Below the pieces are notes generated by a model. It was not told where the DNA came from. It searched no databases and was given only the letters and a program-made list of their open reading frames with translations. DNA of 64,000 nt from an uncultured Pelagibacteraceae bacterium (GTDB taxonomy: Bacteria; Pseudomonadota; Alphaproteobacteria; Pelagibacterales; Pelagibacteraceae), in the NCBI GenBank assembly GCA_902591185.1, contig CACIZU010000002.1, positions 1-64,000 of the forward strand, written 5' to 3'. The translations under genes and the position numbers were made by a program. Positions 2,895 through 48,917 of the stretch are shown one piece after another (positions within the stretch are counted from its first letter, which is position 1; every line of letters begins with the position of its first letter).

Positions 2895-3824
2895 TTATTC
2901 TTCTAAATGTTCGTCGTTATCAGAAATTGGTTCTTCACCTGGCAATTCAGTTGTAGAAGTTTTAGGAGCAGTTTCAACGGGTTTAACTTGTTCACTTAGG
3001 TTTCTTTTTAAGGCTTTATTAAGTTTTTTCTGGGTGTCCTCTAATGATACATTAAGAACAATTTTAAATTCAGATAAAATTCTTTCGTAAGCTTTTTCAA
3101 ATAATTGTCTTTCACTGTAAGATTGATCAACCATAAGATCATCACCTTTATTTAAGTCTCTTACAACTTCTGCTAATTCATAAATTTTACCAGATGAAAT
3201 TTTAGTTTCATATTCTTGTGCTCTTCTACTCCACATAGATCTTTTAATTTTCGGTTTACTTTTTAGAATAGATATACATTTATTGACTTGGTTGATTGTT
3301 GCTAAAGGTCTTAGGTGTAATTGTTTATTAACCGGAATCATACCGTTAGCTTTATCTTTTTCAAATTTTATCACATAAGTTTCTACATCAATTCCACCTA
3401 TGTTAATTTTTTTGAATTCTGTAATTTGACCAACACCATGTTTAGGGTAAACGGCATAATCTTTAATTTTATATTCTCTTTTTTCAGATTCTTGTTTTTT
3501 TACTTTTTTTATTTCAGGTTTAATCTCATTATTTTTAGAAATTCTTAAATTATCTTCTTTTGATTCTTCTTTTTTTATATTAACTGTTTTAGTAGTTTTT
3601 TTAACTTTAGCTTTTATAATTTTTTTAGACTTAGTTATTTTTTTTTTTATAATTACTTTTTTACTTTTTTTACCTTTAGCTTTAATAACTTTTTTAGACT
3701 TAGTTATTTTTTTTTTGACTTTTTTTTTAGTTTTATTCTTAAAGATTTTCTTTAAAATATTTTTCGTACTTATTTTTCTCATTTTTAAATTTTTCATGAT
3801 CCGCTGGTGGATCTTTTTTCTCAC
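2895..3824 (-). CDS. carD: CarD/CdnL-family transcription regulator with repetitive Lys-rich N-terminal extension (start uncertain)
   Basis: '[23 protein letters not shown]...' CarD domain; N-terminal repeats KKKITKSKK(V/I)IKAK(G/V)KK; start overlaps upstream fdxA. Confidence 0.85.
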
Positions 3825-4065
3825 TTATGTTGGGCCAGATTTCTGAAAACTTTTTATTAATCTCTAACCATTTTTCGTTACCAAGTTCAGTATCAGCAGT
3901 TATGGCATCAACTGGGCATTCTGGTTCACAAACGCCACAATCTATACACTCATCAGGTTTAATTACAAGCATATTTTTACCTTCGTAAAAACAATCGACT
4001 GGACAAACATCAACACAGTCGGTCAGTTTACATTTAATACAATTGTCGTTTACAATATAAGTCAT
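3739..4065 (-). CDS. fdxA: 7Fe/8Fe ferredoxin
   Basis: '[55 protein letters not shown]' cluster motifs; second Met used as likely start. Confidence 0.93.
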
Positions 4066-4478
4066 CACAAATTATGATTCTTTATTCTGTCTTTAATATC
4101 GCCCATTGTTTTGTTGTCAATATATAAGAGACCAGCGAGACGTCTCATTAAGTTTGTTTCATATATATCGGCATCTTTATTTGAGTAAATAATTGACCAT
4201 AAACTCTCAATGATTTTGATTTTGTCTTTTTCCGATAAGTTTTTAACTTCCCTTGTAAAATCTAAAATCTGATTAGAATTTTCTTCAATAATTTTTGCTT
4301 TTTTGATTGTTTCAGATAAATCTTCTTTAGCAGAGCCTAGCTCTAAAAGAGTTTTTTTAATAATTTCTTCTTCATTTTCAGTATAATTTTCATCTATTTT
4401 GGCAGCATGAATTAATAATGCACAAATTTTAATTAAAAAATTAGTTTCTGTGTTGTTATTATCTTTTTTAAAAAACAT
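4065..4478 (-). CDS. TerB-like (tellurite-resistance TerB fold) protein
   Basis: helical '[28 protein letters not shown]' pattern typical of TerB-like proteins. Confidence 0.6.
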
Positions 4479-4483
4479 TAAAA

Positions 4484-6967
4484 TTATCTAAGGTTTAAAT
4501 TTTTTAATATTTTAAATGGATTTTCACTTGAAGTCTTTTTTGTAAGAGTTTTCTTAAATTTTTTAACAGGATTATATTTAAAAAATGTTTCATCTTTTTT
4601 ATTGAATATTTTATATCCCATTTTCTGTAAAAGCTTTTTAAAATTGTCTTTACTGCAACCTAGAAGATTTAGCATCTCTGGTATCATTTTTATCTCTTTA
4701 TTTTCTTTTGAATCTGGAGAGTTTATAATTAACATAAATAGTCTTTCAAGAATGTCTATTCTAATAAATAAAGTATCAAATTTTTCAAATCCACAAAGAA
4801 GCATAAAATTTTTATTTTTATAGTCTTTGTCGTCTAAAAAATTTAAACCAAAAGTGGGTGGTTTCAAATTATAATATTTTTGATGAAAATTTTTCCATAA
4901 CAATGTTCTTAATGATACTGCCTCTGGTTTAATCAATTGATATAAAAAAATATGATATCTTCCAAATTTTACACCAAGCTCTCTCAAAATTTTTCTTTCA
5001 TTTTGGCCAAGAGTTTTTAAATACTCAGAAACTTGCTCTCTTTTTAATACCCCATTATTTTCATATAATTGATATGCCAAAGCTTTTATTGATGAATTTT
5101 TTTCTTTAAGATTTTTTAAATCAATTAGGCTTTTAAGAACTACATTAATTTTATTATGTATCCATTTATTAATGTATTCACTTAACTTTTGTTTTTGACT
5201 TTGTTCTATAATTTCATCAATAATAAGTTCAAAATTAGGATTTAAATAATCATTTCCAGTAGATAGTTTTGCTATAGGAAAATCATTCCAATATATTTTG
5301 AAGTCATCATTTAGGTCAATTAAGCCAGTATCGATAATTATTTGGATTCTTTTTTCAAGCTCAGGTCCAACTGACTGTCTCGCAGCTTTTTTTAGTGATT
5401 TAATATCTGTTTCTAATGCACCTTTTTTTAAATCTAACTTTAATTTAAGACCATTTATTTTTCCTATAAATTGATTATCAATCATAACATTATTGTTTTC
5501 TAAAATTTCTGTTTTAAATTCCATATCTTGTTTCAAGCCTCTCGCAAGAACACTTGCCCTTTTATCAATAAACGTTTTGGTAAGTTCTTCATGAAGTCTG
5601 TCTGAAAGTCTATCTTCTAAATGTTTTGTTTTTTCAATCCAATAGTCTTGGTTTTCTATCCAGTTATTTTTATTTGAAACATAAGACCAAGTCCTAACAT
5701 TTGCAATTCTATTTGATAAAGAATCGACATTTCCCTCTAATTTATCCAATTTTATTAACTGTAATCTCATAAATTCATCGGTAATTAGTCTTTTTTCACT
5801 ATTTAAGAATTTAAAAACATTACCAATAACCTCATAATGATTTCCGTAAGTTTTTTTTACAAAATCTGGTATTTGACAGCATTCCCAAAGAAGACTAAGT
5901 GTTTTTTTATCAAATTCTAAATTAATTAAATTTTTATCTTTTAAAAAATATTTAAGAGCTCTTTCATCTTCACATTCATGAATTTTTCTTAACCACTTCA
6001 TTTGAGGTTTTTCTTCTAATGATTTAATTAAACTAAAAGGATTATTAAAATTTAAATTCGAATTTCTCCAAAATAAAGTGCGAATTTCTTCAAATTTATG
6101 ATTTTCTAATAACTCCACATCTTCAGCAGTAATTTCTTTACAATCACCGGTAATTCCAAAGCTTCCATCGTTAAAATACCTTCCAGCTCTACCAGCAATT
6201 TGACTTATTTCAGATAGGTTTAGTTTTCTTAATTTTTTTCCATCAAACTTTTTAAGATTAGAAAAATAAACATAATTTAAGTCCATGTTAATTCCCATTC
6301 CTATAGCATCGGTTGCCACTAAAAAATCAACGTCACCTGACTGATAAAGTTCTACTTGAGCATTTCTTGTTTTAGGACTTAGTGATCCCATTACAATTGC
6401 TGCACCACCTTTTTGTCTTCTTATTAATTCAGCTATTGCATAAACCTCTTCTGCAGAAAAAGCTATTATAACTGTTTTTCTATTTATTCTTGAAATTTTT
6501 TTATGGCCTGTATAGGTAAGTTTAGATAAACGCTTTCTGTTTATAAATTCAATGTCTCCATCTAATTTTGAAATTATACTTTTAATAGTATTAGAACCCA
6601 TAAGCATTGTAAGTTTTTCACCTCTCATATTTAAAAGTCTATCTGTAAAAATATGTCCTCTTTCATGATCTGCACACATTTGAATTTCGTCTACTCCAAC
6701 AAATTCTAAATGTTTATCAATTGGCATTGATTCAACTGTGCATAAAAAATATTTGGCATTGTTTGGAATAATTTTTTCTTCACCTGTAATTAAAGCAACT
6801 TTGTCTAGGCTAATTTTGTTAATTACTTTGTCGTAAACTTCCCTAGCTAATAATCTAAGAGGAAAACCAATCATACCAGATTCAAAAGAGAGCATTGTTT
6901 CTATAGCAAGGTGGGTTTTGCCTGTATTAGTGGGCCCGAGAACAGCTGTGATTTTGTGTTTTGCCAT
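4484..6967 (-). CDS. SUV3-like ATP-dependent RNA helicase
   Basis: 'AVLGPTNTGKTHLAIETM', 'VDEIQM', 'ATDAIGMGINMDLNYVYF', 'QIAGRAGRY'. Confidence 0.9.
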   Translation of the reverse strand: MAKHKITAVLGPTNTGKTHLAIETMLSFESGMIGFPLRLLAREVYDKVINKISLDKVALITGEEKIIPNNAKYFLCTVESMPIDKHLEFVGVDEIQMCADHERGHIFTDRLLNMRGEKLTMLMGSNTIKSIISKLDGDIEFINRKRLSKLTYTGHKKISRINRKTVIIAFSAEEVYAIAELIRRQKGGAAIVMGSLSPKTRNAQVELYQSGDVDFLVATDAIGMGINMDLNYVYFSNLKKFDGKKLRKLNLSEISQIAGRAGRYFNDGSFGITGDCKEITAEDVELLENHKFEEIRTLFWRNSNLNFNNPFSLIKSLEEKPQMKWLRKIHECEDERALKYFLKDKNLINLEFDKKTLSLLWECCQIPDFVKKTYGNHYEVIGNVFKFLNSEKRLITDEFMRLQLIKLDKLEGNVDSLSNRIANVRTWSYVSNKNNWIENQDYWIEKTKHLEDRLSDRLHEELTKTFIDKRASVLARGLKQDMEFKTEILENNNVMIDNQFIGKINGLKLKLDLKKGALETDIKSLKKAARQSVGPELEKRIQIIIDTGLIDLNDDFKIYWNDFPIAKLSTGNDYLNPNFELIIDEIIEQSQKQKLSEYINKWIHNKINVVLKSLIDLKNLKEKNSSIKALAYQLYENNGVLKREQVSEYLKTLGQNERKILRELGVKFGRYHIFLYQLIKPEAVSLRTLLWKNFHQKYYNLKPPTFGLNFLDDKDYKNKNFMLLCGFEKFDTLFIRIDILERLFMLIINSPDSKENKEIKMIPEMLNLLGCSKDNFKKLLQKMGYKIFNKKDETFFKYNPVKKFKKTLTKKTSSENPFKILKNLNLR

Positions 6968-9097: not shown

Positions 9098-10324
9098 ATG
9101 TTAAAAGACTTAATAAAAAATTTAAAGCCATCCTCTACCTTGATGATCAATGAAACTTCAAAGCAAATGGAGGATCAAGGAAAGAAAATATTCAAATTTG
9201 GTTTTGGACAATCACCTTTTAGAGTACCACAAGATGTTGTTGAGGAGCTAAAAAACAATGCTTATCAAAACAAATATTTACCTATGCAAGGTCTTTTTGA
9301 ATTAAGAGAAGTAGTGGCAAAATATACCTCTAAAAAGAAAAATCATGAATACAATTCTGATAATGTAATTATTGGACCCGGCTCTAAAGAATTAATGTTT
9401 TTGCTACATGTTATTTTTGATGGTGAAATTATTTTGCCAGCCCCTAGTTGGGTTTCTTATGCACCACAAGCAATTTTGGGTAGAAATAAAATCCAAATAC
9501 TTCAAACAAAAAGAGAGAACAATTGGTTTCCTAGTGGTCAAGAAATTGAAGAAATAATTTTAAAAGATGAAAATAAAAATTACCTTTTATTTCTAAATTC
9601 ACCAAATAATCCCTCTGGACAAGTTTGTGAAAAATTAGATGAAATCTCAAATGTTGCCAAAAAACACAATCTTATAATTTTATCAGATGAGATATATTCT
9701 GAATTAACATTTAAAGAAAATTATAAATCTATCTCAAATTTTTGTCCTGAAAAAACAATTATAAGTACTGGTCTTAGCAAATGGTGTGGTGCTGGCGGAT
9801 GGAGATTAGGTTATTTTATAATACCCGATTCATTAAACAAAATAAATAAAATGATTAATGTATTAGCAAGCGAAACGTTTTCAGCAGTAAGTGCTCCTAT
9901 TCAATATGCGGCTATAAAAGCTTATGAAAATGATCATACAAAATATATTAGAAAGTCTAAAAATATTTTAAGTGCAGTTGGTAAATATGTTTACTCAAAT
10001 TTAAAGTCTAATAAAGTTTTGATAAATGAGCCACAAGGAGGCTTTTATTTATTGCCAGAATTTCTAAATAATAAATTTAAAACTTCATCGGAAATGTGTG
10101 ACAGTATATTAAAGCATACCGGAGTAGCATTATTACCAGGATCTGATTTTGGCTTTAACTCAAATAAAATGCTAGCAAGGTTAAGCTTTACAGATTTTGA
10201 TGGTCAAGAATTTATGGAACAAATTGAAGATAATCAAAAAGTTGATGACGTAATGATAAACAAATTTGCACCTAAAATAGTCGAAGGTGTCAATAAGTTA
10301 AAAAAATGGTCTGAATCAATATAA
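9098..10324 (+). CDS. PLP-dependent class I/II aminotransferase
   Basis: 'LNSPNNPSGQV', 'ILSDEIYSELTF', 'STGLSKWCGAGGWRLGYF'. Confidence 0.88.
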   Translation: MLKDLIKNLKPSSTLMINETSKQMEDQGKKIFKFGFGQSPFRVPQDVVEELKNNAYQNKYLPMQGLFELREVVAKYTSKKKNHEYNSDNVIIGPGSKELMFLLHVIFDGEIILPAPSWVSYAPQAILGRNKIQILQTKRENNWFPSGQEIEEIILKDENKNYLLFLNSPNNPSGQVCEKLDEISNVAKKHNLIILSDEIYSELTFKENYKSISNFCPEKTIISTGLSKWCGAGGWRLGYFIIPDSLNKINKMINVLASETFSAVSAPIQYAAIKAYENDHTKYIRKSKNILSAVGKYVYSNLKSNKVLINEPQGGFYLLPEFLNNKFKTSSEMCDSILKHTGVALLPGSDFGFNSNKMLARLSFTDFDGQEFMEQIEDNQKVDDVMINKFAPKIVEGVNKLKKWSESI

Positions 10325-10397
10325 AATCTTCCTATACATCCCTAAATATTTCCTGTTAAAATTAAAATATATAAATAACGATATAGGGGAAAAATAT

Positions 10398-11402
10398 ATG
10401 AAAAAAATAATTACATCTCTATCAAGTGCTTTATTGATCTTAGCAGCATCTTTATCTTTAACTGGTGTTGCAAAATCAGCAGAGTTCTTCACGATAGGAA
10501 CTGGAGGTCCTACTGGTGTATACTTCCAAACTGGTAACGCTATTTGTAAAATGTTACACAAATCAGCAATTGCTAAAGAACATGGAAGAAAAAAGGGTAT
10601 AGATAAAGCGTACAGATGTACTGCACCATCAACTGGTGGATCTAACTACAACATCGGTCAAATTGCAGCTGGAGAATTTCAATTTGGCGTTGCTCAATCT
10701 GACTGGCAATTTCATGCTGTAAATGGATCTAGTAAATGGGAAGGAAAACAGTTTAAAGGTTTAAGAGCTGTATTTTCTGTTCACAATGAACCTTTTCAAA
10801 TTTGGGCAAGAAAAAAAGCAAATATTAAAGATTTTGCAGGCTTAAAAGGAAAAGTTGTTAATATTGGTAATCCTGGTTCTGGACAAAGAGGAACTATGGA
10901 AGAACTTATGAAAGCAAAAGGTGTTGATAATAGTTTCTTTAAATCAACTACTGAATTAACTTCATCCGAACAAGTGAAAGCTTTATGTGATGGAAAAATA
11001 GATGCTTTTGGTTATTCTGTAGGATTTCCAAATGGTGCTATGGAGCAAGCAGCAACTTGTGCAGCAAAAGCTTCACCTATTAATTTAACAGGATCTGAAG
11101 TTCAAGGTTTGATTGATGGTGCTGATTATTATGCAAAAGCTGTAATACCGGCTGGTACTTACACAGGACAGAAAAAAGATGCTACTACTTTTGGTGTTAA
11201 GGCTACTGTTGTAACAAGTAATGCAGTTGAAGCTGATCTTGTTTATTTAGTAGTAAAAGCAGTATTTGAAAACTTTGATGATTTTAGAAAACAACATCCT
11301 GCTTTTGCTCCTTTGAAAAAGGAAGATATGATTGCTGATGGTTTGTCAGCTCCTTTACACGAGGGTGCTAAAAGATATTACAAAGAAGCTGGATTAATGT
11401 AA
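10398..11402 (+). CDS. TAXI-family TRAP transporter solute-binding protein
   Basis: signal peptide, 'FFTIGTGGPTGVYFQTGNAICKML', downstream fused TRAP permease. Confidence 0.9.
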   Translation: MKKIITSLSSALLILAASLSLTGVAKSAEFFTIGTGGPTGVYFQTGNAICKMLHKSAIAKEHGRKKGIDKAYRCTAPSTGGSNYNIGQIAAGEFQFGVAQSDWQFHAVNGSSKWEGKQFKGLRAVFSVHNEPFQIWARKKANIKDFAGLKGKVVNIGNPGSGQRGTMEELMKAKGVDNSFFKSTTELTSSEQVKALCDGKIDAFGYSVGFPNGAMEQAATCAAKASPINLTGSEVQGLIDGADYYAKAVIPAGTYTGQKKDATTFGVKATVVTSNAVEADLVYLVVKAVFENFDDFRKQHPAFAPLKKEDMIADGLSAPLHEGAKRYYKEAGLM

Positions 11403-11423
11403 TCTGATTACTTAATTAAATTA

Positions 11424-11454
11424 AAAGGCCTGATTTTTATCGGGCCTTTTTTTT
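11424..11454 (+). terminator. Intrinsic terminator/attenuator between TAXI binding protein and TRAP permease genes
   Basis: AAAGGCCTGA-TTTTTA-TCGGGCCTTT followed by T run. Confidence 0.85.
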
Positions 11455-11476
11455 ATAATAGAGTATCTTTTTTATA

Positions 11477-13798
11477 ATGAATCAAAGTATCAATGAAAAA
11501 ATAAAAAGTAAGATTAATGAAGATTTATCACCAACAAGAAATCTTACAGGATTACATTTAAAAATTGTTGCAGCAATTGCAATAATTTGGTCATTATTTC
11601 AACTTTGGTATGCTTCACCATTTCCTTTTATGCTTAATGTTGGAATGTTTAAAGGGCTTCCAGCTAGAGCTATTCATTTAGGTTTTGCTCTAACTTTAGC
11701 ATTTTTGATTTATCCGATTTCTAAGGGAAAAAAAATTTCTATTTTTGATATTTTAATTAGTTTTATTGCAGCTTTTTCATGTCTTTATATTTATTTTTTT
11801 TATGATCAACTTGTTGATAGAGGAGGTGTGCTCTTAAATATTACAATTGGGGAAAATTTTATAATACCTGTTGAATTAATTATTGGTAGTTGTGGTATTT
11901 TAATTTTACTTGAGGCAACTAGAAGAGCAATAGGTTTACCATTAGTTATTATTGCAGTTTGTTTTTTATTATTTTCTTATTATGGAAGGTATGCTCCAGA
12001 AATAATTTCACATGGAGGGCTTTCACTAAATAGATTAGTTGGTTTTCAATGGCTAGATCAAGAAGCTATATTTGGTATTCCTATTGGTGTATCAGTAGAT
12101 TTTATTTTTTTATTTGTTTTATTTGGTGCACTTTTAGAAACAGCAGGAGGTGGAAAATATTTTTTAGATTTAGCTTTTGCAATGGTTGGAAAAATGAGAG
12201 GAGGACCTGCAAAGGCAGCAATTTTAGGTTCTGGTATGACGGGTTTAATTTCAGGATCTTCAATAGCAAATACAGTAACAACTGGAACTTTTACTATTCC
12301 AATAATGAAAAAAACTGGTTTTTCTAAAGAAAAAGCAGGAGCAATAGAAGTTTCATCTTCAGTAAATGGTCAGATTATGCCACCAGTTATGGGAGCTGCT
12401 GCATTTGTTATGGCAAGTTTTATTGGTGTAACCTATTTTGAAGTTGTTAAACATGCTTTTTTGCCAGCAATAATATCTTATATCGCATTATTTTATATTT
12501 CACATCTTGAAGCTTTAAAATTAAATTTAAAAGGAATGGATGATTCAGATGTTCCTAATTTAAAAAAAACATTTTTATCAGGAGTTCATTTCTTAATTCC
12601 AATTTTTGTTTTGATATATATGTTAGTTTATTTAAGGTTTACAGCTTCTTATTCTATTTTTTATGCAACTGTTTCATTAATTTTTGTAAATTTAATTTAT
12701 TTATTGATAAAAGATTCTAATTCAAAAGATGCTCTTAAAGCTTGGTTTAATCAAACCATAGTTGGTTTTGAAAAAGGTGCATTAAATATGGTTGGTGTAG
12801 GAATAGCAATAGCCACAGCAGGTATCATTGTAGGAGCCGTAGGATCTACAGGCTTAAGTACAAATTTAATTATAGTTATAGAGTCTATTGCAAAAGATAA
12901 TGTTACAATATTATTATTTTTAACGATTATTTTATGTTTGCTTTTAGGAATGGGTTTACCAACAACTGCAAATTATGTTGTTGTTGCTTCATTGATGGCA
13001 ACAGTTTTAGTTGATGTTGGAAATGCTTCTGGTTTTATTTTTCCAATTATAGCAGTTCATTTGTTTGTTTTTTATTTTGGTCTAATGGCTGATGTAACTC
13101 CTCCAGTAGGTCTTGCATCCTATGCGGCGGCGGCTATTTCGGGTGGAGATCCTCTTAAGACTGGTTTTCAAGCTTTTTGGTATAGTTTAAGGACTGGAAT
13201 TCTTCCAATTGTATTTTTATTTAATCATGAATTGTTACTAATAGGTATTGAAAATATTTGGCATGGATTAATTGTAATTACAACTTCGTTATTAGGTATA
13301 CTTGTATTCACGTCGGCGACTCAAGGATGGTTTATTAATAGATTAAGATGGTACGAAATAATAGTTTTTCTTATAATTTCTATTTCTTTACTATCTCCTG
13401 ATTTTGTTCTTAATAAATTTTATCCAAAATATAATTATAAAGATATTAACGAAATTAATCTTGTTAAATTAGATCCTAGTAAAGAAGTACGTTTTAAAAT
13501 TACACGACCTAGTCCATATGGAGAAAGATATAAATTATTTATAATTGATAAAAATACTTTTGAATCCGAGTATGATATAGAAGAATATGGAATGAATTTA
13601 GTAAAACAAGATAATAGAATAGTTGTTGATACTTTAAAATGGAATGGAAAAGCTAAAAAAAGTGGATTTGAAATGGGTGATTATATAAGTGAATTTAAAA
13701 TAGAAAATTCAAATAGACCGAATAAAAGAATTATTTATCCAATAGCAATTTTATTATTAATCATATTTGGTTATTTAAACTATAAAAGAAAAATTTAA
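11477..13798 (+). CDS. TRAP transporter fused permease, with C-terminal DUF3394-like tail
   Basis: 'GKMRGGPAKAAILGSGMTGLISGSSIANTVTTGTFTIPIMKKTGFSKEKAGAIE' and many TM segments. Confidence 0.9.
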   Translation: MNQSINEKIKSKINEDLSPTRNLTGLHLKIVAAIAIIWSLFQLWYASPFPFMLNVGMFKGLPARAIHLGFALTLAFLIYPISKGKKISIFDILISFIAAFSCLYIYFFYDQLVDRGGVLLNITIGENFIIPVELIIGSCGILILLEATRRAIGLPLVIIAVCFLLFSYYGRYAPEIISHGGLSLNRLVGFQWLDQEAIFGIPIGVSVDFIFLFVLFGALLETAGGGKYFLDLAFAMVGKMRGGPAKAAILGSGMTGLISGSSIANTVTTGTFTIPIMKKTGFSKEKAGAIEVSSSVNGQIMPPVMGAAAFVMASFIGVTYFEVVKHAFLPAIISYIALFYISHLEALKLNLKGMDDSDVPNLKKTFLSGVHFLIPIFVLIYMLVYLRFTASYSIFYATVSLIFVNLIYLLIKDSNSKDALKAWFNQTIVGFEKGALNMVGVGIAIATAGIIVGAVGSTGLSTNLIIVIESIAKDNVTILLFLTIILCLLLGMGLPTTANYVVVASLMATVLVDVGNASGFIFPIIAVHLFVFYFGLMADVTPPVGLASYAAAAISGGDPLKTGFQAFWYSLRTGILPIVFLFNHELLLIGIENIWHGLIVITTSLLGILVFTSATQGWFINRLRWYEIIVFLIISISLLSPDFVLNKFYPKYNYKDINEINLVKLDPSKEVRFKITRPSPYGERYKLFIIDKNTFESEYDIEEYGMNLVKQDNRIVVDTLKWNGKAKKSGFEMGDYISEFKIENSNRPNKRIIYPIAILLLIIFGYLNYKRKI

Positions 13799-14829
13799 TC
13801 TACAAATGTTCTATTAAATTGATTTGAAACTCTAACAAATGTAGTGCATTTGCTTAATTGTTTTAGTGATGGAGCCCCTACATAAGTGCAACTACTTCTA
13901 ATGCCACCAAGAATATTTGAAATAGTATCTTTTATTTTACCTCTATATTTTACTCTTACAGCTCTTCCTTCACTACTTCTGTAATCAGAAAGTCCTCCAT
14001 AGTGTTTCTTATTGGCAACCATAGAGCTTGATCCATAAAATTCTATATATTTACTTCCATTTGATTTTACAATTTTACCTTTACCTTCATCGTGTCCAGC
14101 AAGCATTCCTCCAAGCATTACAAAATCTGCTCCACCACCAAATGCTTTTGAAACATCACCAGGACATGTACAACCACCATCAGCTATAATATGAGCACCA
14201 AGACCATGTGCAGCATCAGCGCATTCCATAACAGCACTTAATTGAGGATAACCAACTCCAGTTTGAATTCTAGTTGTACAAACACTTCCTGGTCCAATAC
14301 CAACTTTTACAATATCAGCTCCACTTAAAACTAATTCTTGGGCCATATCAGCAGTAACAACATTTCCTGCAATTATAGTTTTAGTTGGATATTTTTCTCT
14401 AACAGATTTTACAAATTTACTAAAATGTTCTGAATAACCGTTTGCAACATCTATACAAATGAAATTAAAAAAATTAAATTCTTTTAATACTTTGTTTAGA
14501 TTATCAAAATCTTCTTTTTTGATACCAATACTTAAGGCTAGATTTTTATAAATTGGTCTAATTTTTTTGAATTGTTTTAATTTTTTAACATCATGTTGTT
14601 TCGTTAAACAGGTAATCATTCCAAACTCAGATAGTTTTTCAGCTATACCTAACTCACCTACGCCATCCATATTAGCCGCCATAATTGGTATTCCTGACCA
14701 TTCATTATTACTATATTTGAAACGATAGGTTCTCATTAAGTTTACTTCTTTACGACTTGCTAAAGTACTTCGTTTAGGTCTGAACAAAACATCAGAGTAA
14801 TCTAATTTTAAGTCTTCTTCTATTCTCAT
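13795..14829 (-). CDS. guaC: GMP reductase
   Basis: 'LDYSDVLFRPKRSTL', 'AGNVVTADMAQELVLSGADIVKVGIGPGSVCTTR', short GMPR-type IMPDH/GMPR fold. Confidence 0.88.
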   Translation of the reverse strand: MRIEEDLKLDYSDVLFRPKRSTLASRKEVNLMRTYRFKYSNNEWSGIPIMAANMDGVGELGIAEKLSEFGMITCLTKQHDVKKLKQFKKIRPIYKNLALSIGIKKEDFDNLNKVLKEFNFFNFICIDVANGYSEHFSKFVKSVREKYPTKTIIAGNVVTADMAQELVLSGADIVKVGIGPGSVCTTRIQTGVGYPQLSAVMECADAAHGLGAHIIADGGCTCPGDVSKAFGGGADFVMLGGMLAGHDEGKGKIVKSNGSKYIEFYGSSSMVANKKHYGGLSDYRSSEGRAVRVKYRGKIKDTISNILGGIRSSCTYVGAPSLKQLSKCTTFVRVSNQFNRTFVD

Positions 14830-38191: not shown

Positions 38192-38599
38192 ATGATTATA
38201 TATTCAAATAAAAAAAAAAATAAAATTTTGGGTGTTTTACATAGGTCTAAAAAAATTTCGAATAAAAGAAATAATATTTCTCCAATTAATGAATATCTTC
38301 AAATTTCAAGTCAAAAATTAAAAAAAGGTGATTATATAAATCCTCATGTTCATCTAAAAAATAAAAGAATAATATTTAGCACTCAAGAGGCATGGTTTGT
38401 TTTAAAAGGAAAATTATCTGTAAAAATTTTTGATATAGATAAAAAAAATATTAAAAATCTCATTTTAAATAAAGGAGATATTTATGTTTTTTTTTGTGGG
38501 GGTCATTCATTCAAAGTTTTAAGTAATAATGCAGAATTTTATGAAATAAAAAATGGCCCTTATCAAAAAAATGTAAAAGACATTGAATATTTTAAGTAA
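38192..38599 (+). CDS. Small cupin-like protein at start of polysaccharide island
   Basis: 'GDYINPHVHLKNKRIIFSTQEAWFVLKGKLSVKIFDID...NKGDIYVFFCGGHSF' cupin-type motifs. Confidence 0.6.
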   Translation: MIIYSNKKKNKILGVLHRSKKISNKRNNISPINEYLQISSQKLKKGDYINPHVHLKNKRIIFSTQEAWFVLKGKLSVKIFDIDKKNIKNLILNKGDIYVFFCGGHSFKVLSNNAEFYEIKNGPYQKNVKDIEYFK

Positions 38600-38649: not shown

Positions 38650-39624
38650 ATGAAAAAAAAAGCATTTATTACAGGAATTAATGGCCAAGATGGAAGTTAT
38701 TTATCAAATCTTTTAGTAGAAAAAGGCTATAAAGTTTATGGTTTGGTTAGAAGAAATTCAATTAATGAACATCAAACAACAAGACTTGATCTATTAAATA
38801 ATAAAATTGATTTAAGTTATGGAGACTTGTTAGACGAAAGCTCCTTGGAAAGTAAAATCAGAAAAATTAAGCCAGATGAAATTTATAATTTAGCTGCGCA
38901 ATCACATGTAAAAGTTAGTTTTGAAATACCTCAATTTACAGTAAAAACAAATGCAATCGGTGTCTTAAATATGTTAGAGGCATTTAGAAAATTTTCTGCA
39001 AAAGGAAGATTTTATCAAGCTTCATCATCAGAAATGTTTGGAGTAAATGTGGATAAAGACAAATTTCAAAGAGAAACAACAGAACTTGCTCCTAATAGCC
39101 CATATGGATGTTCTAAAGTTTTTTCATTTTATTTAACAAAATTTTACAGACGAGCATATAAATTATTTGTGTGTAATGGTATTTTATTTAACCACGAGTC
39201 ACCCTTTAGAGGTACAAATTTTGTAACTAATAAGATTGTGAAAGGAGCAGTATCAATAAAACTTGGATTGCAAAATAAATTAGAGCTAGGCAATTTAGAT
39301 GCTTGTCGTGATTGGGGTCACTCGAAAGATTATGTAGAAGCAATGCATAGAATTATAAATCATAAGGTTGCAGATGATTTTGTTGTGGCATCTGGAAAAA
39401 CTTTTTCTGTTAGGGATTTTTGTAGTATCACATTCAAAAAATTAGGGTTAAATTATAAAGACTATGTAGTACAAAATAAAAAATATTTTAGGCCTGGAGA
39501 AGTGCCTTTCCTAAAAGGCGATGCGAGAAGAGCAAGAAAAATTTTAAAGTGGAAGCCAAAGTATACAATATATGCTTTGATTGATGAAATGATAGAAAGC
39601 TGGAACAAAACATTAGAAAGATAA
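38650..39624 (+). CDS. gmd: GDP-mannose 4,6-dehydratase family protein
   Basis: 'FITGINGQDGSYLSNLLVEKGYKVYGLVRRNS', 'QASSSEMFG', 'YGCSKVF', 'NGILFNHESP'. Confidence 0.9.
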   Translation: MKKKAFITGINGQDGSYLSNLLVEKGYKVYGLVRRNSINEHQTTRLDLLNNKIDLSYGDLLDESSLESKIRKIKPDEIYNLAAQSHVKVSFEIPQFTVKTNAIGVLNMLEAFRKFSAKGRFYQASSSEMFGVNVDKDKFQRETTELAPNSPYGCSKVFSFYLTKFYRRAYKLFVCNGILFNHESPFRGTNFVTNKIVKGAVSIKLGLQNKLELGNLDACRDWGHSKDYVEAMHRIINHKVADDFVVASGKTFSVRDFCSITFKKLGLNYKDYVVQNKKYFRPGEVPFLKGDARRARKILKWKPKYTIYALIDEMIESWNKTLER

Positions 39625-41366
39625 TGTTTTTTAATTTTATCTCATTTATATCAATTTATATTTTTTTTTTTACAATAATTTTATCAGCTGGCAAAATAGC
39701 AAATAATTATATCTTACAATTTAAAAACCTAAGTTTAGGTGAGCATGGCATATTAGGTTTTATAATTTTTTATTTTTTAAGTTTATGTATTCACTTTTTT
39801 TTTGCGATTAATGATTTAATAATTTTTTCTGTTTTTCTCATACTAATAATTTTCTTCGTAAGAAATTTTAGAAATATTCTAAAAATAAATAAAATTAGTA
39901 ATTTAAAGTTATTTATTACTTTTTTAATTTTTTTAATAATATCAATCACGAATAATCATCATGATGATTTATATATATTCCAGCTTCCTATTATAAATTA
40001 TATGCAAAATTATAAGATTGTTTTTGGCTTAATTAATTTGAATGATTTTATCGGGCAAGGTCATAGCTTTTATGAGATTATGTCACTTTTTAAAATTCCG
40101 ATATACGAAAATAGAGCATACTTTTTATTACCGATAATATTTTTACATTTTTTTGTAATTTTTTTGTTCGAATCTCTTGAAATTGAAAAAAATAAATTTG
40201 TAAAATATTTTATTTATTTTGTTATCGCTTTATTAATCATTAGATTCAATAGAAGTAAAGAATATGGAACAGATCTGCCAATTTTATGTTTACTATTTTA
40301 TATTCAAATAAATTTTTTTCGCTTTTTAAACTCCAAAAATATTGAATATTTTTTTAAATCTATTTTAGCAAGTTTGTTCTGTATAATTTTAAAACTTTAT
40401 GGAGTTCTTTCTATATTTTATGTGTTTGCTTTTTTGCCTTTACTTAAAAAGGATGTGTTTAGAATATTTGAGAAAAAAAAATATATATTTTTTATTTTAT
40501 CAATATTCTTCTTAACTATAACAAAAAATATCATAGTTTCGGGATGTATGTTTTATCCAATTTCTGAAATCTGTTTAGATAAAAAGTATGCTAACTGGTC
40601 TATAGGAAGGGAGATAGCAGAAAAAAGAAATGAATTTTATAGTGCCCAAGTTTTTGGATGGAGATCTTATACAAAAAATATTAATCAAGGAAAATTTATA
40701 TCTGCAAAAGGATATCTTGAAACGAATGCAGTTGAAAAAATTAAAGGCTTAATGACTGATAAAGATTTAGAAAAAATTATTACTGGGATTGTGATAGTTT
40801 TTTTATTCATACTAATCTCAGTATCATCAAAAAATAAAATTAAAATCGATAAAATAAAACGATATCCTAACTTAATAATATTATTATGTTTTTTTATACC
40901 ATTTATGATTTGGTCGATTAAGTTTCCACAAAGTAGATATGGATATTTTTCATATGTTTCCTGCTTATTTTTTTATATATCATATCGATATTTTAATTTA
41001 GGAGAAATAAATAAAAAATCTGTAAAAATTTTTTTTTCAATATTATTAATTTTTCTTTCAACTAAGAATATTTTAAGAATTCATAGTGAAATTCAAAATA
41101 ACAATAATAATATAAATCAATATCCAATAAAAAAATTTAAGTCAGATGATTATATCGTAAAATTAATAGATAATATTAAATTTAATATTCCAAAAAACTC
41201 TTTTATGGAGTGCTCAAATATACCAATGCTATGTCTTGCAAATCAAAAGATGATTAAAAAAGCAAAAGTATATAATGGATATTATTTTCTAGAAAATAAT
41301 TCATCGGAATTAAGACGGCATATAAGTTCTTCTGCTTATTATGATATGATAGAAACTAATAATTAA
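39624..41366 (+). CDS. Polytopic membrane protein, probable polysaccharide-biosynthesis/GT-C-like
   Basis: 580 aa, many TM segments, 'NHHDDLYIFQLPIINYMQ' and location in glycosyltransferase cluster. Confidence 0.5.
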   Translation: MFFNFISFISIYIFFFTIILSAGKIANNYILQFKNLSLGEHGILGFIIFYFLSLCIHFFFAINDLIIFSVFLILIIFFVRNFRNILKINKISNLKLFITFLIFLIISITNNHHDDLYIFQLPIINYMQNYKIVFGLINLNDFIGQGHSFYEIMSLFKIPIYENRAYFLLPIIFLHFFVIFLFESLEIEKNKFVKYFIYFVIALLIIRFNRSKEYGTDLPILCLLFYIQINFFRFLNSKNIEYFFKSILASLFCIILKLYGVLSIFYVFAFLPLLKKDVFRIFEKKKYIFFILSIFFLTITKNIIVSGCMFYPISEICLDKKYANWSIGREIAEKRNEFYSAQVFGWRSYTKNINQGKFISAKGYLETNAVEKIKGLMTDKDLEKIITGIVIVFLFILISVSSKNKIKIDKIKRYPNLIILLCFFIPFMIWSIKFPQSRYGYFSYVSCLFFYISYRYFNLGEINKKSVKIFFSILLIFLSTKNILRIHSEIQNNNNNINQYPIKKFKSDDYIVKLIDNIKFNIPKNSFMECSNIPMLCLANQKMIKKAKVYNGYYFLENNSSELRRHISSSAYYDMIETNN

Positions 41367-42167: not shown

Positions 42168-42983
42168 TTGTTAGAAATGTCTGCAACTAAAAAAAAAATA
42201 TTTATCTTATTTTCAGGAGAAATGCGTTTTTTCTATGAAAATATTTTATCAATAAATGAAAGTTTAAATGATTATGATAAAATATTCCTTTTTTATCCGT
42301 GGAATCATCAAAGTGAAGTAATAAAAAAATTTAAGAAATATTATACCAAAAATCATATAAATTATATTTCAGAGAATAATTGGGACAAAATTTTAGAAAA
42401 AATTAAATATCCGGATAACGCAGCAAGTATTTCAGGAGGGTTATTTTTTATGTGGGATGCACTTACACAATCCTTTTCTAAGTTAAAACATGATCTGAAT
42501 GATAATGATTTAATACTAAGATTTAGATCAGATATTAAGATTAATTCAAAAAAACTAAATTTAAATTTAGATAATGTAAAAAACAATACACTTTACATAC
42601 CTGATTGTTATCATTGGAATGGTTATAATGATCAAGTTTTTTTATCAAAAGTTAAGACATTAAGTAAGTTTAGTAATTTTTTTGAATTTGTTAATAAATC
42701 AATAGAAAAAAATTATTTCATATGCCCAGAATATATTTTCTATAAATTTCTTAAAAAAGAAAAAATCAATACTATTTTTTTTGAATTTGATTACCAAATT
42801 TTGAAAAATAAAAAAATAGTAGAAAATAAAGATATGCTTGTAAAAGGAGGAAAAAGCTATATTCCAATAAAAGATAAAATTACAATAAAAATTTTAAAAA
42901 TTTTATATAAATTTAGAAATTTTAAAGAATTTTATTTAAAAAAAAAGAAAAGGAATAAAAATCAAAACTTATTTTATGACTAA
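42168..42983 (+). CDS. Putative glycosyltransferase-like protein (WavE-like)
   Basis: 'IFILFSGEMRFFYENILSINESL', 'NDLILRFRSDIKIN' resemble WavE-type proteins; start uncertain. Confidence 0.5.
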   Translation: MLEMSATKKKIFILFSGEMRFFYENILSINESLNDYDKIFLFYPWNHQSEVIKKFKKYYTKNHINYISENNWDKILEKIKYPDNAASISGGLFFMWDALTQSFSKLKHDLNDNDLILRFRSDIKINSKKLNLNLDNVKNNTLYIPDCYHWNGYNDQVFLSKVKTLSKFSNFFEFVNKSIEKNYFICPEYIFYKFLKKEKINTIFFEFDYQILKNKKIVENKDMLVKGGKSYIPIKDKITIKILKILYKFRNFKEFYLKKKKRNKNQNLFYD

Positions 42984-44109
42984 AAATTTTTTAATTTTAA
43001 TGTCAGGAGGAACAACTCCAGTTATTAATTCAACATTAGTTGGTATTATTGAAAAAATAAAAAAAAAATCTTCTAAAATTAAAATTTTTTCTGGACAACC
43101 TGGAATTGATGGAGTTTTAAAAAATAGATTTATAGATTTAACAAAGTTCACTAAATCTAAATTGAAGGTTATTTCAAAAATACCAGGATCTCATATAGTG
43201 GGAACTACAAGATTAAAAAAACTTAATATTAGAGAGATAAATCTTTTAAAAAAAAATTTAATAAATAAAAAAATTGATAATATTATTAATATTGGAGGCA
43301 ATGGAACTCTTCAACAAACAATAGACTTATCAAACCGTTTAAGAAATTTTAATTTTATATCTTGTCCAAAAACAGTTGATAATGATCTTGGGGATATAAA
43401 TTTCAATAAGATGTTGTGTAATCCTGGGTTCTCTTCATGTATCAGTATTTGGAAATTTTTTTTAGAGATGATCAACTTAGAAAATATAGGTGCAAAATCT
43501 CATGATAAGATTATTATTTCACAAACTTTTGGAAGAGAAACTGGTTTTATTTGTGGGGCCATTAGATATTGGGATCAAAAAAGAAAATTACCTATAATGT
43601 TATTATTACCCGAAGATAAAAAAAATTATTCAGAGATATTATTGTATGCAAAAAAACAAATTAAAAAATTTGGTCGTTTAATGATTTTTTTGTCTGAAGG
43701 ATACAACTTAAGTAATATTGTTCCTAAATATGACAAAAGTGGTCAAATAATGTATGGATCAAGTGGAACATCAAGTGCACAAATTTTATTAAATAAATTA
43801 AACAAGAATGGTATTCAATCAAGAATATTTAATCCAACAATTTTACAAAGAGTTTTTAGTTTTAAAAATCAAGTTATAAATAAGAAAGATAATTTATTTG
43901 CAAAAAATGTTGGAATTTGTGCAGTGAAGCTTCTTTTAGCAAATAAAAAATCATATTTGATTGGTTTATCTGATAAAAATAAAATTAACCCAATATCTTT
44001 TAGTGATTGTAAAAAATATAGTAGAAAAATGCCAGTAAGATTCATTAAATCTGGTTCGTTTGATGTATCAAATGATTATATAAAGTATTTAAATAAAGTG
44101 ATGAAATAA
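42976..44109 (+). CDS. Phosphofructokinase-fold kinase of unknown substrate
   Basis: 'LMSGGTTPVINS', 'NIGGNGTLQQT' (GGDGT-like), 'CPKTVDNDLGD', 'QTFGRETGFICGAIRYW'. Confidence 0.85.
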   Translation: MTKNFLILMSGGTTPVINSTLVGIIEKIKKKSSKIKIFSGQPGIDGVLKNRFIDLTKFTKSKLKVISKIPGSHIVGTTRLKKLNIREINLLKKNLINKKIDNIINIGGNGTLQQTIDLSNRLRNFNFISCPKTVDNDLGDINFNKMLCNPGFSSCISIWKFFLEMINLENIGAKSHDKIIISQTFGRETGFICGAIRYWDQKRKLPIMLLLPEDKKNYSEILLYAKKQIKKFGRLMIFLSEGYNLSNIVPKYDKSGQIMYGSSGTSSAQILLNKLNKNGIQSRIFNPTILQRVFSFKNQVINKKDNLFAKNVGICAVKLLLANKKSYLIGLSDKNKINPISFSDCKKYSRKMPVRFIKSGSFDVSNDYIKYLNKVMK

Positions 44110-46199
44110 TGAAAATAGGCATAGCTGTTTTAGCGTATAATAGGCCCAAGCATTTAAAAAGAGTTATTGATGCAATTGTTAAACAGAAAATTGAATCAAT
44201 AAATGTTTACATAGATGGTGCAGCTGATAAGGAAATATATAAAAACCAAGAAAAAATATTTAAACTATTAAAAAATTACAAATCTAAAATTTTAATTAAT
44301 TTAATTAAACAACCTAAAAATAATGGTTTAGCCTTCTCGGTTACAAATGCAGTAACTAGTGAATTAAAAATCAATGATGCAGTTATATTATTAGAAGATG
44401 ACTGTGTTCCTTTGAGTGGTTTTTTTGACTATATGTTTAGTGGGTTAAAAAAATATCGTTCATCAAAAAACGTTAGAAGTATATGCTCGTACAATAATCT
44501 TGAAACTAAATCAGATGACGCCTTTTTTTTAAAACGGTTTAATCCTTGGGGGTGGGCAACTTGGAAAGATAGATGGAAAAAACATAATTTTGAAATAAAA
44601 AATACAATTACTCAAATAAAAAATAATGGAACTATAGATAGTTTGCCTTTAGATTTAAAATCCTATTCTGAAAATAGTGAAATAATTAATGGCACGCAAG
44701 ATATTTGGAGTCTTTCTTGGACACTTACACACTATTTGGATAATTCTCTTATACTCTATCCTTCGCATTCATATATTGAAAATATTGGATTTGATGGAAC
44801 AGGTGTTCATTGTTCTTCTACTAATATATTTAAAATAAATCATAAAAATAAAAAATGTATTCTTCCGAAAAAAATTAATTTTAATTTACAGAATGAAACA
44901 AAATATAATTCATTCTTAATAGAAAATTCATTTAGAACTTTTTTAAAGAAAAAAAAATTAGATCTGGTTGAACCATATGTATTTATAAGAAATAAAGATT
45001 ATATATTAGGCAATCAAATAAAATTTTACATAGAAAAATTTGTTAACTCTACTCCCATATTTGATATACACACACACTTATTTCCATCAAAATTTAAAAA
45101 ATATTATAATGTAGGTTTAATTAAACTTTTAAATTATCATTATTTAAAAGCTGAACTTTTCTCATTAGGAAATATAAAAATAAATTATTTTAATAAGTTA
45201 AATGATAATAAAAAAGCAAGAATAATTTGGAATAATTTATTTTTAAACAGATATCCTTTATCTACTGCAACACAAGGAGTTTTAAGAATTTTAAAAATTT
45301 ATGGTGTTGACGATGTTAACCAAAAATTTGAAAAAATATTAAAAATTACCAACGAAAATCAACTTTCCGAAGGGGATATTTTTAGTATCACAAATATAAA
45401 GCAGGTAGTTATGACAAATAATCCTTTTGAAAAAGATGAAAAAAAAATTCTTAATTTGAATAAAGATAATAGATATTTACCTTCAATAAGAATTGATGAC
45501 TTGTTTTTAAAACCAAAAAATAAAAAAGATTTTTTAATGTCCTCTTATCTTTCAAATCATGAGAAAATAAAAAAAACAATTAATGAAATTAAAAAAATAT
45601 TAAAAATTAACAGACCTTCTTATTTTTCATTGTCATCAGAAAATTTTGATGAATTTAAAAATGATTTATTTTTTGATAATTTTTTACCATTATTAAGACA
45701 ATCTAAAACACCAATGATGTTATTAATTGGAGTTAAAAGAGGTGTTAATAAATTATATAATGATGCAGGTGATGGCATTGGTACAATGAACCTAAATAAT
45801 TTAGAAAAAATTTTAAGTAAATTCCCAAATAATAATTTCTTAATATCATGTCTTGATTATAGAGATCAATTTAGACTGAACGTTTTAGCAAGAAAATTTC
45901 AAAATTTGAAAATAGTTGGTTTTTGGTGGTTTAATAACAATGAAAGCATAATAGAAAATTTATTAAAACAAAGATTTGAATTATTGGGAGATAATTTCAT
46001 ATTACAACATTCGGATGCGAGGATAGTGGATCAATTAGTTTACAAATGGTTAGATTTCAAAAGTATTTATATTAAAGTAATGGTTGAAAAATACCATAAG
46101 CTCTTAAGTTTAGGATATAAAATTAAAGCAAGTGATTTAGAAAAGAAAATAAATTTTCACTTTGAAGAAATGCCCCAAAAAAATATTAGATTAAAATGA
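44109..46199 (+). CDS. Bifunctional protein: N-terminal family-2-like glycosyltransferase + C-terminal uronate isomerase (UxaC)-like domain
   Basis: aa 1-~300 'IGIAVLAYNRPKHLKRVIDAI...LLEDDCVPLSGFF...NPWGWATWKDRW'; aa ~310-696 'FDIHTHLFP', 'VVMTNNPFEKD...YLPSIRIDDLF', 'IVGFWWFNNN', 'LQHSDARIVDQLVYKW'. Confidence 0.8.
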   Translation: MKIGIAVLAYNRPKHLKRVIDAIVKQKIESINVYIDGAADKEIYKNQEKIFKLLKNYKSKILINLIKQPKNNGLAFSVTNAVTSELKINDAVILLEDDCVPLSGFFDYMFSGLKKYRSSKNVRSICSYNNLETKSDDAFFLKRFNPWGWATWKDRWKKHNFEIKNTITQIKNNGTIDSLPLDLKSYSENSEIINGTQDIWSLSWTLTHYLDNSLILYPSHSYIENIGFDGTGVHCSSTNIFKINHKNKKCILPKKINFNLQNETKYNSFLIENSFRTFLKKKKLDLVEPYVFIRNKDYILGNQIKFYIEKFVNSTPIFDIHTHLFPSKFKKYYNVGLIKLLNYHYLKAELFSLGNIKINYFNKLNDNKKARIIWNNLFLNRYPLSTATQGVLRILKIYGVDDVNQKFEKILKITNENQLSEGDIFSITNIKQVVMTNNPFEKDEKKILNLNKDNRYLPSIRIDDLFLKPKNKKDFLMSSYLSNHEKIKKTINEIKKILKINRPSYFSLSSENFDEFKNDLFFDNFLPLLRQSKTPMMLLIGVKRGVNKLYNDAGDGIGTMNLNNLEKILSKFPNNNFLISCLDYRDQFRLNVLARKFQNLKIVGFWWFNNNESIIENLLKQRFELLGDNFILQHSDARIVDQLVYKWLDFKSIYIKVMVEKYHKLLSLGYKIKASDLEKKINFHFEEMPQKNIRLK

Positions 46200-46927
46200 T
46201 CTGGATCTTACCAATGGCAGGGAAGGGTACAAGAACAAACTCTCTAGGTAAATTTAAGCCATTTATTAAAGTCAATGGAAAAAAAATAATTGAATGGTTT
46301 TTGATTAGCATAAAACATAAAATTAAAAAAAATGATACTATTTTTTTGATAACAACAATTGAATATGAAAAAAAATATAATTTTCAAAAAAAAATGAAAA
46401 TAATTTTTAAAGAAAAAAAATTAAAAACTAAAAATTTTATTTTTAAATTTATTGATAATACACCAAATGGACCAGCATTCACAATAAACTCAATTAAAAA
46501 TTTTTTAAAAAATACTAAAACACCATGCGTAATAATTAATCCAGATCAGTTTATTGACTTTGATTTACCAAAAAAAATTAATAAAAATAATTTATACATA
46601 CCTTTGCATTTTAATAATCATGGTAACTCTAGCTATGTGAAACTAAACCAACAAGGTAATATTGTTGAAATTAAAGAAAAAACTTTAATATCAAATTATG
46701 CAAGTAGTGGTGTATACATTTTTGCTTCTTCAGAATTACTTAAAAAGATTCTGAGTTTAATTGGTGAGATCAAATCTAAAAAAGAGATTAATATGAGCGA
46801 CTTAATTAATTTATTTATTAAAAGAAATAATAAGAAAGTTAATCCTATTAGCACATTAATCAAATATGATTTAGGAAATATTAAAAGTATAAAAGATTTT
46901 CCAATAAAAGATATTAAAGTAAATTAA
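46196..46927 (+). CDS. Sugar-phosphate nucleotidyltransferase
   Basis: 'WILPMAGKGTRTNSLGKFKPFIKVNGKKIIEWFL' NTP_transferase motif. Confidence 0.8.
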   Translation: MIWILPMAGKGTRTNSLGKFKPFIKVNGKKIIEWFLISIKHKIKKNDTIFLITTIEYEKKYNFQKKMKIIFKEKKLKTKNFIFKFIDNTPNGPAFTINSIKNFLKNTKTPCVIINPDQFIDFDLPKKINKNNLYIPLHFNNHGNSSYVKLNQQGNIVEIKEKTLISNYASSGVYIFASSELLKKILSLIGEIKSKKEINMSDLINLFIKRNNKKVNPISTLIKYDLGNIKSIKDFPIKDIKVN

Positions 46928-48820
46928 ATGTGTGGAATAATAGGTATTTATCAAGAAAACAGAGACAACAGTCGTCAATTATTAGATTCAATTGGAAGCA
47001 TCAAGCATAGAGGACCAGATCATACTGGAATTTGGTATAATAAGAATATATCTTTAGGTAACACAAGACTTAAGGTTGTTGATTTAGATGAAAAATCAAA
47101 TCAGCCATTTATTTCACGGAACAAAAGATATATAATGGTTTTTAATGGTGAGATATATAATCATCACATACTAAAAAAAAAATTTAAGATTTTTACAAAA
47201 ACTCAAAGTGACACAGAAGTCATAATCGAACTTTTTTCCAAAATTAGAGAAAGATGCTTTAGTTTATTAGATGGAATGTTTTCTATAGCAATATTTGATA
47301 ATCAAGAGTGTAGGTTATATTTATCTAGGGATCCCTTCGGAATAAAACCTCTATACTATTCTTTAAAAAATAATAAATTTATTTTTTGTTCGGAGATAAA
47401 AGGCATCATAAGTCAAAAAACTAAATATATTCAGAATGATAATAGCATTATTAATTTTGTAAAGTGGGGTGGTTTAGATCATTCTAATGAAACTTGGTAC
47501 AAAAATATCAAAAATGTTAGTCCGGGATCGACATTGGTAATAGATAGAAAATTTTCTATCTCAGAAAAAAAATATTATTTTTTTAGTGAAAATGTAAAAA
47601 ATAAAAAAATTGATCAAGATAATATTCCTTTACAATTTAAAGCTTTGCTAAAAAAATCAGTTAAAGAACAATCAAAAACAATCAGATCTATAGGAACAAA
47701 TTTATCTGGAGGAGTTGACTCGTCAATATTAACATTATTTTTGAAAGACAATAAAAAAGAGATTAATACTTACACTTTTGGTTATAATGAAAAAAAATAT
47801 GATGAAAGAAAATATGCAAAAAAGGTTTCAAAAAAATTAAACTTAAAAAACTTTACATCTATTTGTTCATCGAAAGATATAAATAAAAACTTCATAAACA
47901 CTCTGATCATGGAAGATGAACCATTTTCATCATTTAGACAAGTATCCCATCACAAACTTTATGAAGATTATAAGAATGATGGATCTACCGTTATCCTAGA
48001 AGCTAGTGGTGGTGATGAAATTGGAGCAGGCTATGCAGGTTTTCTTTGGCCACTATATTTAGATCAATTAAAAAAAGATGGTCATAATAAAGCTTGGTCA
48101 AATTTGTTGAAAAATTTAAATTTAAAAAAAAATAGTATTGAACAAATTTTTAATTTTGTAACTGCAGGAATAGAAAATCAAAAAAATTATGGGGTATGTA
48201 CATCTGATGGTCAAAGAATTATTAAGAATAATTTAATTAGCAATAGTTATGAAAAAAAATATGATAAGGGACCACCAATATATTCAAAAGATTTTGAAAG
48301 TTATCTTCAAAATTCTCAGTATATTGAACTTTTCCACACAAAACTTCCAAGGGGATTGAGATATGTTGATAGAGCATCATCTGGAAGTGGGAGAGAAGCT
48401 AGAGTGCCTTTATTAACAAAAGAATTAGTGGAATTTTGTTTTGCGATCCCAAATAATTTTAAAATTCGAGATGGAGAATTAAGATGGTTTATGAAAAAAT
48501 CTATGAAATATATAACAAATAACTTTATCAATTTAAAAAATAAAAGAAGCGTTGCAGATCCCCAAAGAGATTGGTTGAGAAAAGATTTTAAAACAATTGT
48601 TTTTGAATTATTTAATTCAAAAAAATTTGGCAATAGAGGAATATTTGACCAAAACGAAGTTGTTAAAAATTATGAATATTTTTTAAAAAAAAAGGATGCT
48701 CATAGTTTAGGTGTATTCCAAATTTTTATTACAGAAATATGGTTAAGACTTTTTATTGATAGCAAGCCTTCATATTTTAAAGATGCCAAACTTGATGAAT
48801 TTATTTATGAAACAAATTAA
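46928..48820 (+). CDS. asnB: Asparagine synthase (glutamine-hydrolysing) family amidotransferase
   Basis: '[14 protein letters not shown]' with Cys2, '[11 protein letters not shown]', '[17 protein letters not shown]', '[12 protein letters not shown]'. Confidence 0.92.
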
Positions 48821-48827
48821 TTTTAAG

Positions 48828-48917
48828 GGAGAGGTGGCCGAGTGGTTGAAGGCGCACGCTTGGAAAGCGTGTATAGGGGAAGCTCTATCGCGGGTTCGAA
48901 TCCCGCTCTCTCCGCCA
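48828..48917 (+). tRNA. tRNA-Ser (anticodon GGA)
   Basis: GGAGAGG..TCTCTCC acceptor, anticodon stem CACGC/GCGTG with loop TTGGAAA, long variable arm, T stem GCGGG-TTCGAAT-CCCGC, encoded CCA. Confidence 0.96.

Follow-up and report, generated by a model that had tools for sequence, protein, structure and literature searches.

We identified a protein in an uncultured Pelagibacteraceae bacterium (assembly GCA_902591185.1, contig CACIZU010000002.1, positions 1 to 64,000; this whole stretch of 64,000 nucleotides is called the window) in which a glycosyltransferase (GT) was fused with a uronate isomerase-type domain. The gene (44109-46199, + strand) is a single unbroken open reading frame of 696 aa, as a first-pass annotation made from the sequence had described it. 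It comprises a GT-A-like half (44109-44999, +; about aa 1-297, including a linker) and a Bh0493-type uronate isomerase half (45024-46190, +; about aa 306-694; assigned by phmmer and Foldseek). Motif positions listed in that annotation agreed with ours to within one residue: EDDC starts at aa 96 and WGWATW at aa 147 in the GT half, followed by H321-T322-H323, R461 within SIRIDD, G604-F-W-W-F608 and D636/R638. The fusion gene is part of a tightly packed cassette. It is preceded by a phosphofructokinase (PFK)-like kinase (42976-44109, +; 377 aa), whose stop codon and the fusion gene's start codon overlap (TAATG), and is followed by a sugar nucleotidyltransferase (46196-46927, +; 243 aa; PF00483, E 4e-9), with which it shares a 4-base overlap, and by an Asn-synthase-like amidotransferase (46928-48820, +; 630 aa; TIGR01536, E 3.5e-99). 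The cassette stops 8 bases short of a tRNA-Ser gene (48828-48917, +), which marks its edge and possibly an island boundary, and is located between lepA- and gyrB-like genes.

Glycan genes surround the cassette in the window, forming an island. The same island includes genes for a WbuC-type cupin (38192-38599), a GDP-mannose-dehydratase-like protein (38650-39624) and a membrane protein of the LIC_10190 family (39624-41366; NF047510, E 1.5e-35). The gene upstream of the kinase (42168-42983) was compared with its positional counterpart in a second fusion-containing genome (L025, see below), and the two were not similar. UDP-glucose-dehydrogenase-family genes were present in the genome. On contig C18 of G000, two equal-scoring dehydrogenase matches were found in opposite orientation (4965-5261, +; 13204-13500, -), which suggests an inverted duplication and perhaps a chimera formed during amplification.

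The C-terminal half had been likened to UxaC. Its uronate isomerase fold was confirmed, but the relative is Bh0493 of Bacillus (Halalkalibacterium) halodurans rather than canonical UxaC: PF02614 (UxaC) had no match above the Pfam cut-off in the 696-aa protein and was not found anywhere in the genome, whereas control genomes were positive. When all PDB sequences were searched with phmmer, residues 308-681 matched Bh0493 (2q08) with an E-value of 1.4e-70 and 35% identity. An AF2 model of this half, with pLDDT mostly >90, was compared with solved structures, a check the first-pass annotation had proposed; Foldseek returned Bh0493 chains (2qee and 3hka) as best matches (E ~5e-32, TM(target) 0.84-0.88), including 3hka, a complex with D-fructuronate. 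We then compared nine active-site positions (H26, H28, H49, Y50, R170, W325, W326, D355 and R357 in Bh0493). All nine were identical. The HxH motif (H321/H323, 45069-45077, +) and D636-A-R638 (46014-46022, +), both predicted beforehand to be active-site elements, aligned with H26/H28 and D355/R357, respectively, while H344/Y345 (45138-45143, +) corresponded to H49/Y50 and R461 (45489-45491, +) to R170. The same nine positions were invariant across the window protein, the remaining fusions and both the phage and the solo isomerases, even though overall identity of the isomerases dropped to about 31%. By family, this half is a divergent Bh0493-type uronate isomerase, and it is predicted to interconvert hexuronate and ketohexuronate.

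The GT half was less clearly classified. It had been called GT2-like and contains the EDDC and WGWATW motifs, but its match to PF00535 (E 0.005, 17.3 bits) falls below the cut-off of 23.3, so it was not assigned to GT2. In profile searches its best solved match was a GT13 enzyme, POMGnT1, at a weak E-value of 0.006. Residues 120-295 were mostly modelled poorly by AF2.

The kinase belongs to the PFK family (PF00365, E 9e-28; catalytic TVDND motif), and its structure model matched the PPi-dependent PFKs 3k2q and 3hno. PKTVDND and GR are kept, as are K178, R283 and R292 of the C6-anion site, residues that cannot tell a phosphate from a carboxylate. In PFKs, an aspartate at the position of Gly104 of the E. 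coli enzyme selects PPi. Cassette kinases have GG(N/S)GT where 3k2q has GGGDS, so the PPi-selecting aspartate is missing; in the PFK literature, the GG(N/S)GT loop goes with ATP rather than PPi. Phylogenetic analysis separated six cassette kinases (SAR11 and phage) from five other PFKs with 100/100 support. Plasmid matches to the kinase were distant and mostly annotated as PFKs; the viral PFK-like matches L130, L132, L133 and L136 were PFK homologs without the cassette. For the nucleotidyltransferase, the best solved match in profile searches was an NDP-sugar pyrophosphorylase (4evw, E 4e-11). Wider relatives (G457, G1049, G1298, G1192 and G1177) belonged to a different capsule trio that lacked such a kinase or isomerase. 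This trio of a HAD-like protein, a ~510-540-aa protein and a 234-248-aa nucleotidyltransferase recurs in several Pseudomonadota (L165-L169); in L165, L167 and L168 it is found around 6.4-9.1 kb in glycan-type surroundings.

The isomerase domain occurred in the same setting in four other Pelagibacter-type genomes; GT sequence was present in three of them, and the fourth is cut by a contig end. Full-length fusions (54-55% identity) were detected in AG-911-N14 (L024, the same as G179) and SCGC AAA795-E22 (L025), so the search for this fusion in other genomes, also proposed at the outset, was positive. In AH-324-N05 (L026), the fusion is interrupted by a contig end with part of the GT present, and in AG-325-E22 (L023) a contig end cuts away all but the linker and isomerase domain (83% identical). 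The isomerase domains of the five SAR11 genomes formed one clade (support 100/99). The fusion is rare. A whole-protein search of 297 family genomes yielded one other full-length copy. With the kinase as query, 399 genus genomes gave one strong match besides that of the window (G721, on a contig matching that of L025 in number and length) and 298 order genomes gave one (G179). Other SAR11 genera gave weak PFK matches (E ~1e-18), which we treated as ordinary PFKs, and an apparent stand-alone match in G209 was spurious, falling within a GT4-like gene. Gene order in L024 was the same as in the window (kinase, GT-isomerase fusion, nucleotidyltransferase, amidotransferase); L025 contains the kinase, the fusion and the beginning of the nucleotidyltransferase, and the L023 and L026 contigs show whatever portion of the cassette they contain. 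In L025, the nucleotidyltransferase start runs into an 1850-aa open frame (9152-14704), which may reflect unknown bases in a scaffold gap. The nucleotidyltransferase gene was conserved in L023, L024 and L026 as well as in phage cassettes. The amidotransferase, a candidate for carboxylate amidation, adjoins the cassette in the same three SAR11 contigs and is absent from the cassettes of phages L103 and L105. In L024 and L026 the cassette borders an rRNA operon, whereas in the window it borders tRNA-Ser; therefore, at least two island sites are used. We conclude that this is a genuine fusion of a GT with a uronate isomerase-type domain, with active-site residues intact, inside a glycan gene island.

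Searching viral contigs with the kinase and the nucleotidyltransferase yielded three contigs (L103, L104 and L105). L105 contains an unfused version of the cassette, with kinase (3000-4208), GT (4183-5064), solo isomerase (5061-6062; E 9e-29 to Bh0493) and nucleotidyltransferase (6001-6747) in this order; the GT and isomerase genes overlap by ATGA, and the solo GT is 28-32% identical to the GT half of the fusions. In L103 the kinase comes first, followed by the GT, then by a KduI/IolB cupin (PF04962, E 6e-46, 157 bits versus a cut-off of 23.9) and last by the nucleotidyltransferase, again with overlapping genes. Both contigs bear a T4-type Gp23, and L105 also encodes a phage DNA polymerase; each of these two variants is represented by one contig. 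L104, which lacks Gp23 and is perhaps non-viral, has the kinase and nucleotidyltransferase genes adjacent, with no isomerase between them. Cupin-type KduI/IolB and TIM-barrel Bh0493 have unrelated folds. E. coli KduI has been reported to convert glucuronate and galacturonate, and the authors propose isomerization (PMC3578941). Occurrence of KduI/IolB in the isomerase slot of L103, flanked by GT and nucleotidyltransferase, speaks for a need for the isomerase reaction as such, and of all our evidence this swap points most strongly to the reaction being important. INPHARED phages gave no match to the window kinase or to the isomerase of L105 at an E-value limit of 1e-5, and none to the L103 nucleotidyltransferase at a limit of 1e-3; matches to the L103 kinase and KduI were distant (about 22-27% identical).

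Additional features were observed on these contigs. The DNA polymerase of L105 (10392-12029) has, as judged by eye, an intein-like insertion at the DTDS motif, between VYIDTDSIV and FIANDILVHNS. Directly upstream of the L105 cassette is a gene of the KdsA/DAHP-synthase-I family (998-1738; PF00793, E 8e-47), which may feed another sugar-acid pathway. In L103 (176-4407) and L104 (1547-5060), genes for a DegT-type aminotransferase, a NeuB-type synthase, a xylose-isomerase-like TIM barrel and an SDR lie beside the kinase, suggesting an additional nonulosonate-like pathway.

The nearest alphaproteobacterial solo homologs of the isomerase (L027-L030, about 42-43% identical) are encoded within a few genes of UxuA, a reductase of the mannitol-dehydrogenase family, a GH31 enzyme and an ABC transporter, and a member of this reductase family is also encoded just before Bh0493. 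Since these solo homologs occur in uronate-catabolic loci, the isomerase step looks recruited from catabolism.

We propose, with a probability of roughly 55%, that the cassette makes and uses an activated ketouronate, that the fusion protein is a bifunctional enzyme of glycan assembly, and that its isomerase half was recruited from hexuronate catabolism. In such a pathway, the active isomerase half would convert a free hexuronate of the glucuronate/galacturonate type to a ketouronate of the fructuronate/tagaturonate type; the PFK-like kinase would phosphorylate this ketose, with the C6 carboxylate of the substrate standing in for the phosphate at C6 of fructose 6-phosphate; the nucleotidyltransferase would activate the sugar phosphate; and the fused GT would pass the activated sugar to a surface glycan. 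In SAR11, the carboxylate may also be amidated by the Asn-synthase-like enzyme. Sequence and structure prediction show the fold and active-site residues of the isomerase half, the families of the neighboring genes, the conserved order, the unfused arrangement in phage and the KduI/IolB replacement; the exact sugar, the direction of the reaction, the phosphorylated position, the nucleotide, the acceptor and a channelling role of the fusion are inferred. The first-pass annotation had read the fusion as coupling the isomerase to glycan assembly, perhaps for making or checking an unusual uronic/ulosonic residue. The coupling is supported, but it is better demonstrated by the conserved cassette than by the fusion alone, because GT and isomerase are separate in phage L105. 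Making such a residue fits the data and is sharpened by the KduI/IolB replacement; we found no support for checking. The fusion is most simply taken as biosynthetic rather than catabolic. The weak point of the pathway is the phosphorylated position: PFK chemistry phosphorylates the C1-OH, which is not the anomeric position, and a conventional NDP-sugar donor would therefore need a changed kinase site or sugar-phosphate transfer. The L104 kinase-nucleotidyltransferase pair lacking an isomerase, the weak classification and poor modelling of the GT half and the single contig behind each phage variant also count against it.

Other explanations were considered. It is conceivable, although we regard it as rather unlikely, that the cassette is biosynthetic but its isomerase uses another substrate or runs in reverse, producing an aldose uronate from a ketose or acting on a deoxy or phosphorylated sugar acid, so that the kinase and nucleotidyltransferase would work on a different intermediate. 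This would agree with the usual C1 chemistry of the kinase, which yields no anomeric phosphate, and with the substrates for which KduI/IolB enzymes are mainly known, deoxy-keto-uronates and 5-deoxyglucuronate; however, the nearest solo homologs reside beside UxuA and a fructuronate-type reductase, which implies an ordinary hexuronate, the active-site positions are the same as in Bh0493, and a PFK-family kinase suits a ketose. An improbable reading is that the domain is catabolic and feeds scavenged uronate to central metabolism, its joining to a GT being incidental. Although every characterized relative and the nearest solo homologs are catabolic, linkage to kinase, GT and nucleotidyltransferase is conserved across SAR11 and phages, the gene is located within a glycan island, and no UxuA relative was found in the 73% complete genome (a search that had no positive control).

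Fused domains are inactive in some cases, and the C-terminal half might likewise lack catalytic activity and serve the GT as a scaffold or binding domain. We consider this very improbable, as the checked active-site positions are all conserved in fused, solo and phage forms although overall identity drops to about 31%, and replacement of a scaffold by an unrelated isomerase, as in L103, would make no sense. Finally, the adjacent L105 genes with their ATGA overlap illustrate how one indel could join two neighboring genes, and the fusion could in principle be a sequencing error of this kind. Its recurrence in separate genomes shows that it is not an assembly artefact; the independently assembled copies are about 54% identical and have an alignable linker region, which refutes this explanation and leaves it a negligible chance.

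The preferred reading, an activated ketouronate made and used by the cassette, links textbook catabolic and glycolytic families (hexuronate isomerase and PFK) to a nucleotidyltransferase and a GT. If true, activated ketouronates would be a new kind of sugar donor, made by members of one of the most abundant groups of bacteria and by marine phages; SAR11 surface glycans would be predicted to contain an uncharacterized acidic residue, and phages would be shown to bear a complete sugar-activation module. That a marine phage has the gene set without the fusion points to a route, not described before, to an unusual acidic glycan sugar, and we found no account of such a pathway in the open-access literature. 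More tentatively, a new nucleotide-sugar route via a ketouronate could be common to SAR11 glycan islands and T4-like marine phages, with either unrelated isomerase (Bh0493-type or KduI/IolB) serving in step one and with isomerase and GT fused in SAR11. The phage sugar might be destined for DNA, the virion or the host surface. Owing to the two-isomerase swap, four small soluble enzymes are enough to put the central claim to the test.

Components of the cassette resemble known systems in part. Bh0493 (structures 2q08, 2qee and 3hka; Nguyen et al. 2008, as cited in PMC2684587) shares with the fused domain its fold, domain length, nine active-site positions and 35% identity, but it is free-standing and encoded beside a mannitol/altronate-type dehydrogenase gene in a catabolic setting, whereas here the isomerase is fused with a GT in a glycan cassette. 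KduI/IolB shares uronate aldose-ketose isomerization and the isomerase slot of the L103 cassette, but has an unrelated cupin fold and is normally catabolic. The PPi-PFKs 3k2q and 3hno have the same fold, TVDND and GR motifs and PKT lysine as the cassette kinases, which differ in forming a separate clade, in their GG(N/S)GT loop and in being encoded in glycan or phage cassettes. GDP- and ADP-heptose are synthesized by an isomerase-kinase-nucleotidyltransferase-GT route. The proposed pathway would follow the same logic (isomerize, phosphorylate, activate, transfer); however, the heptose routes use other enzyme families throughout and start from sedoheptulose 7-phosphate, whereas the cassette would use a uronate, with the isomerase fused to the GT.
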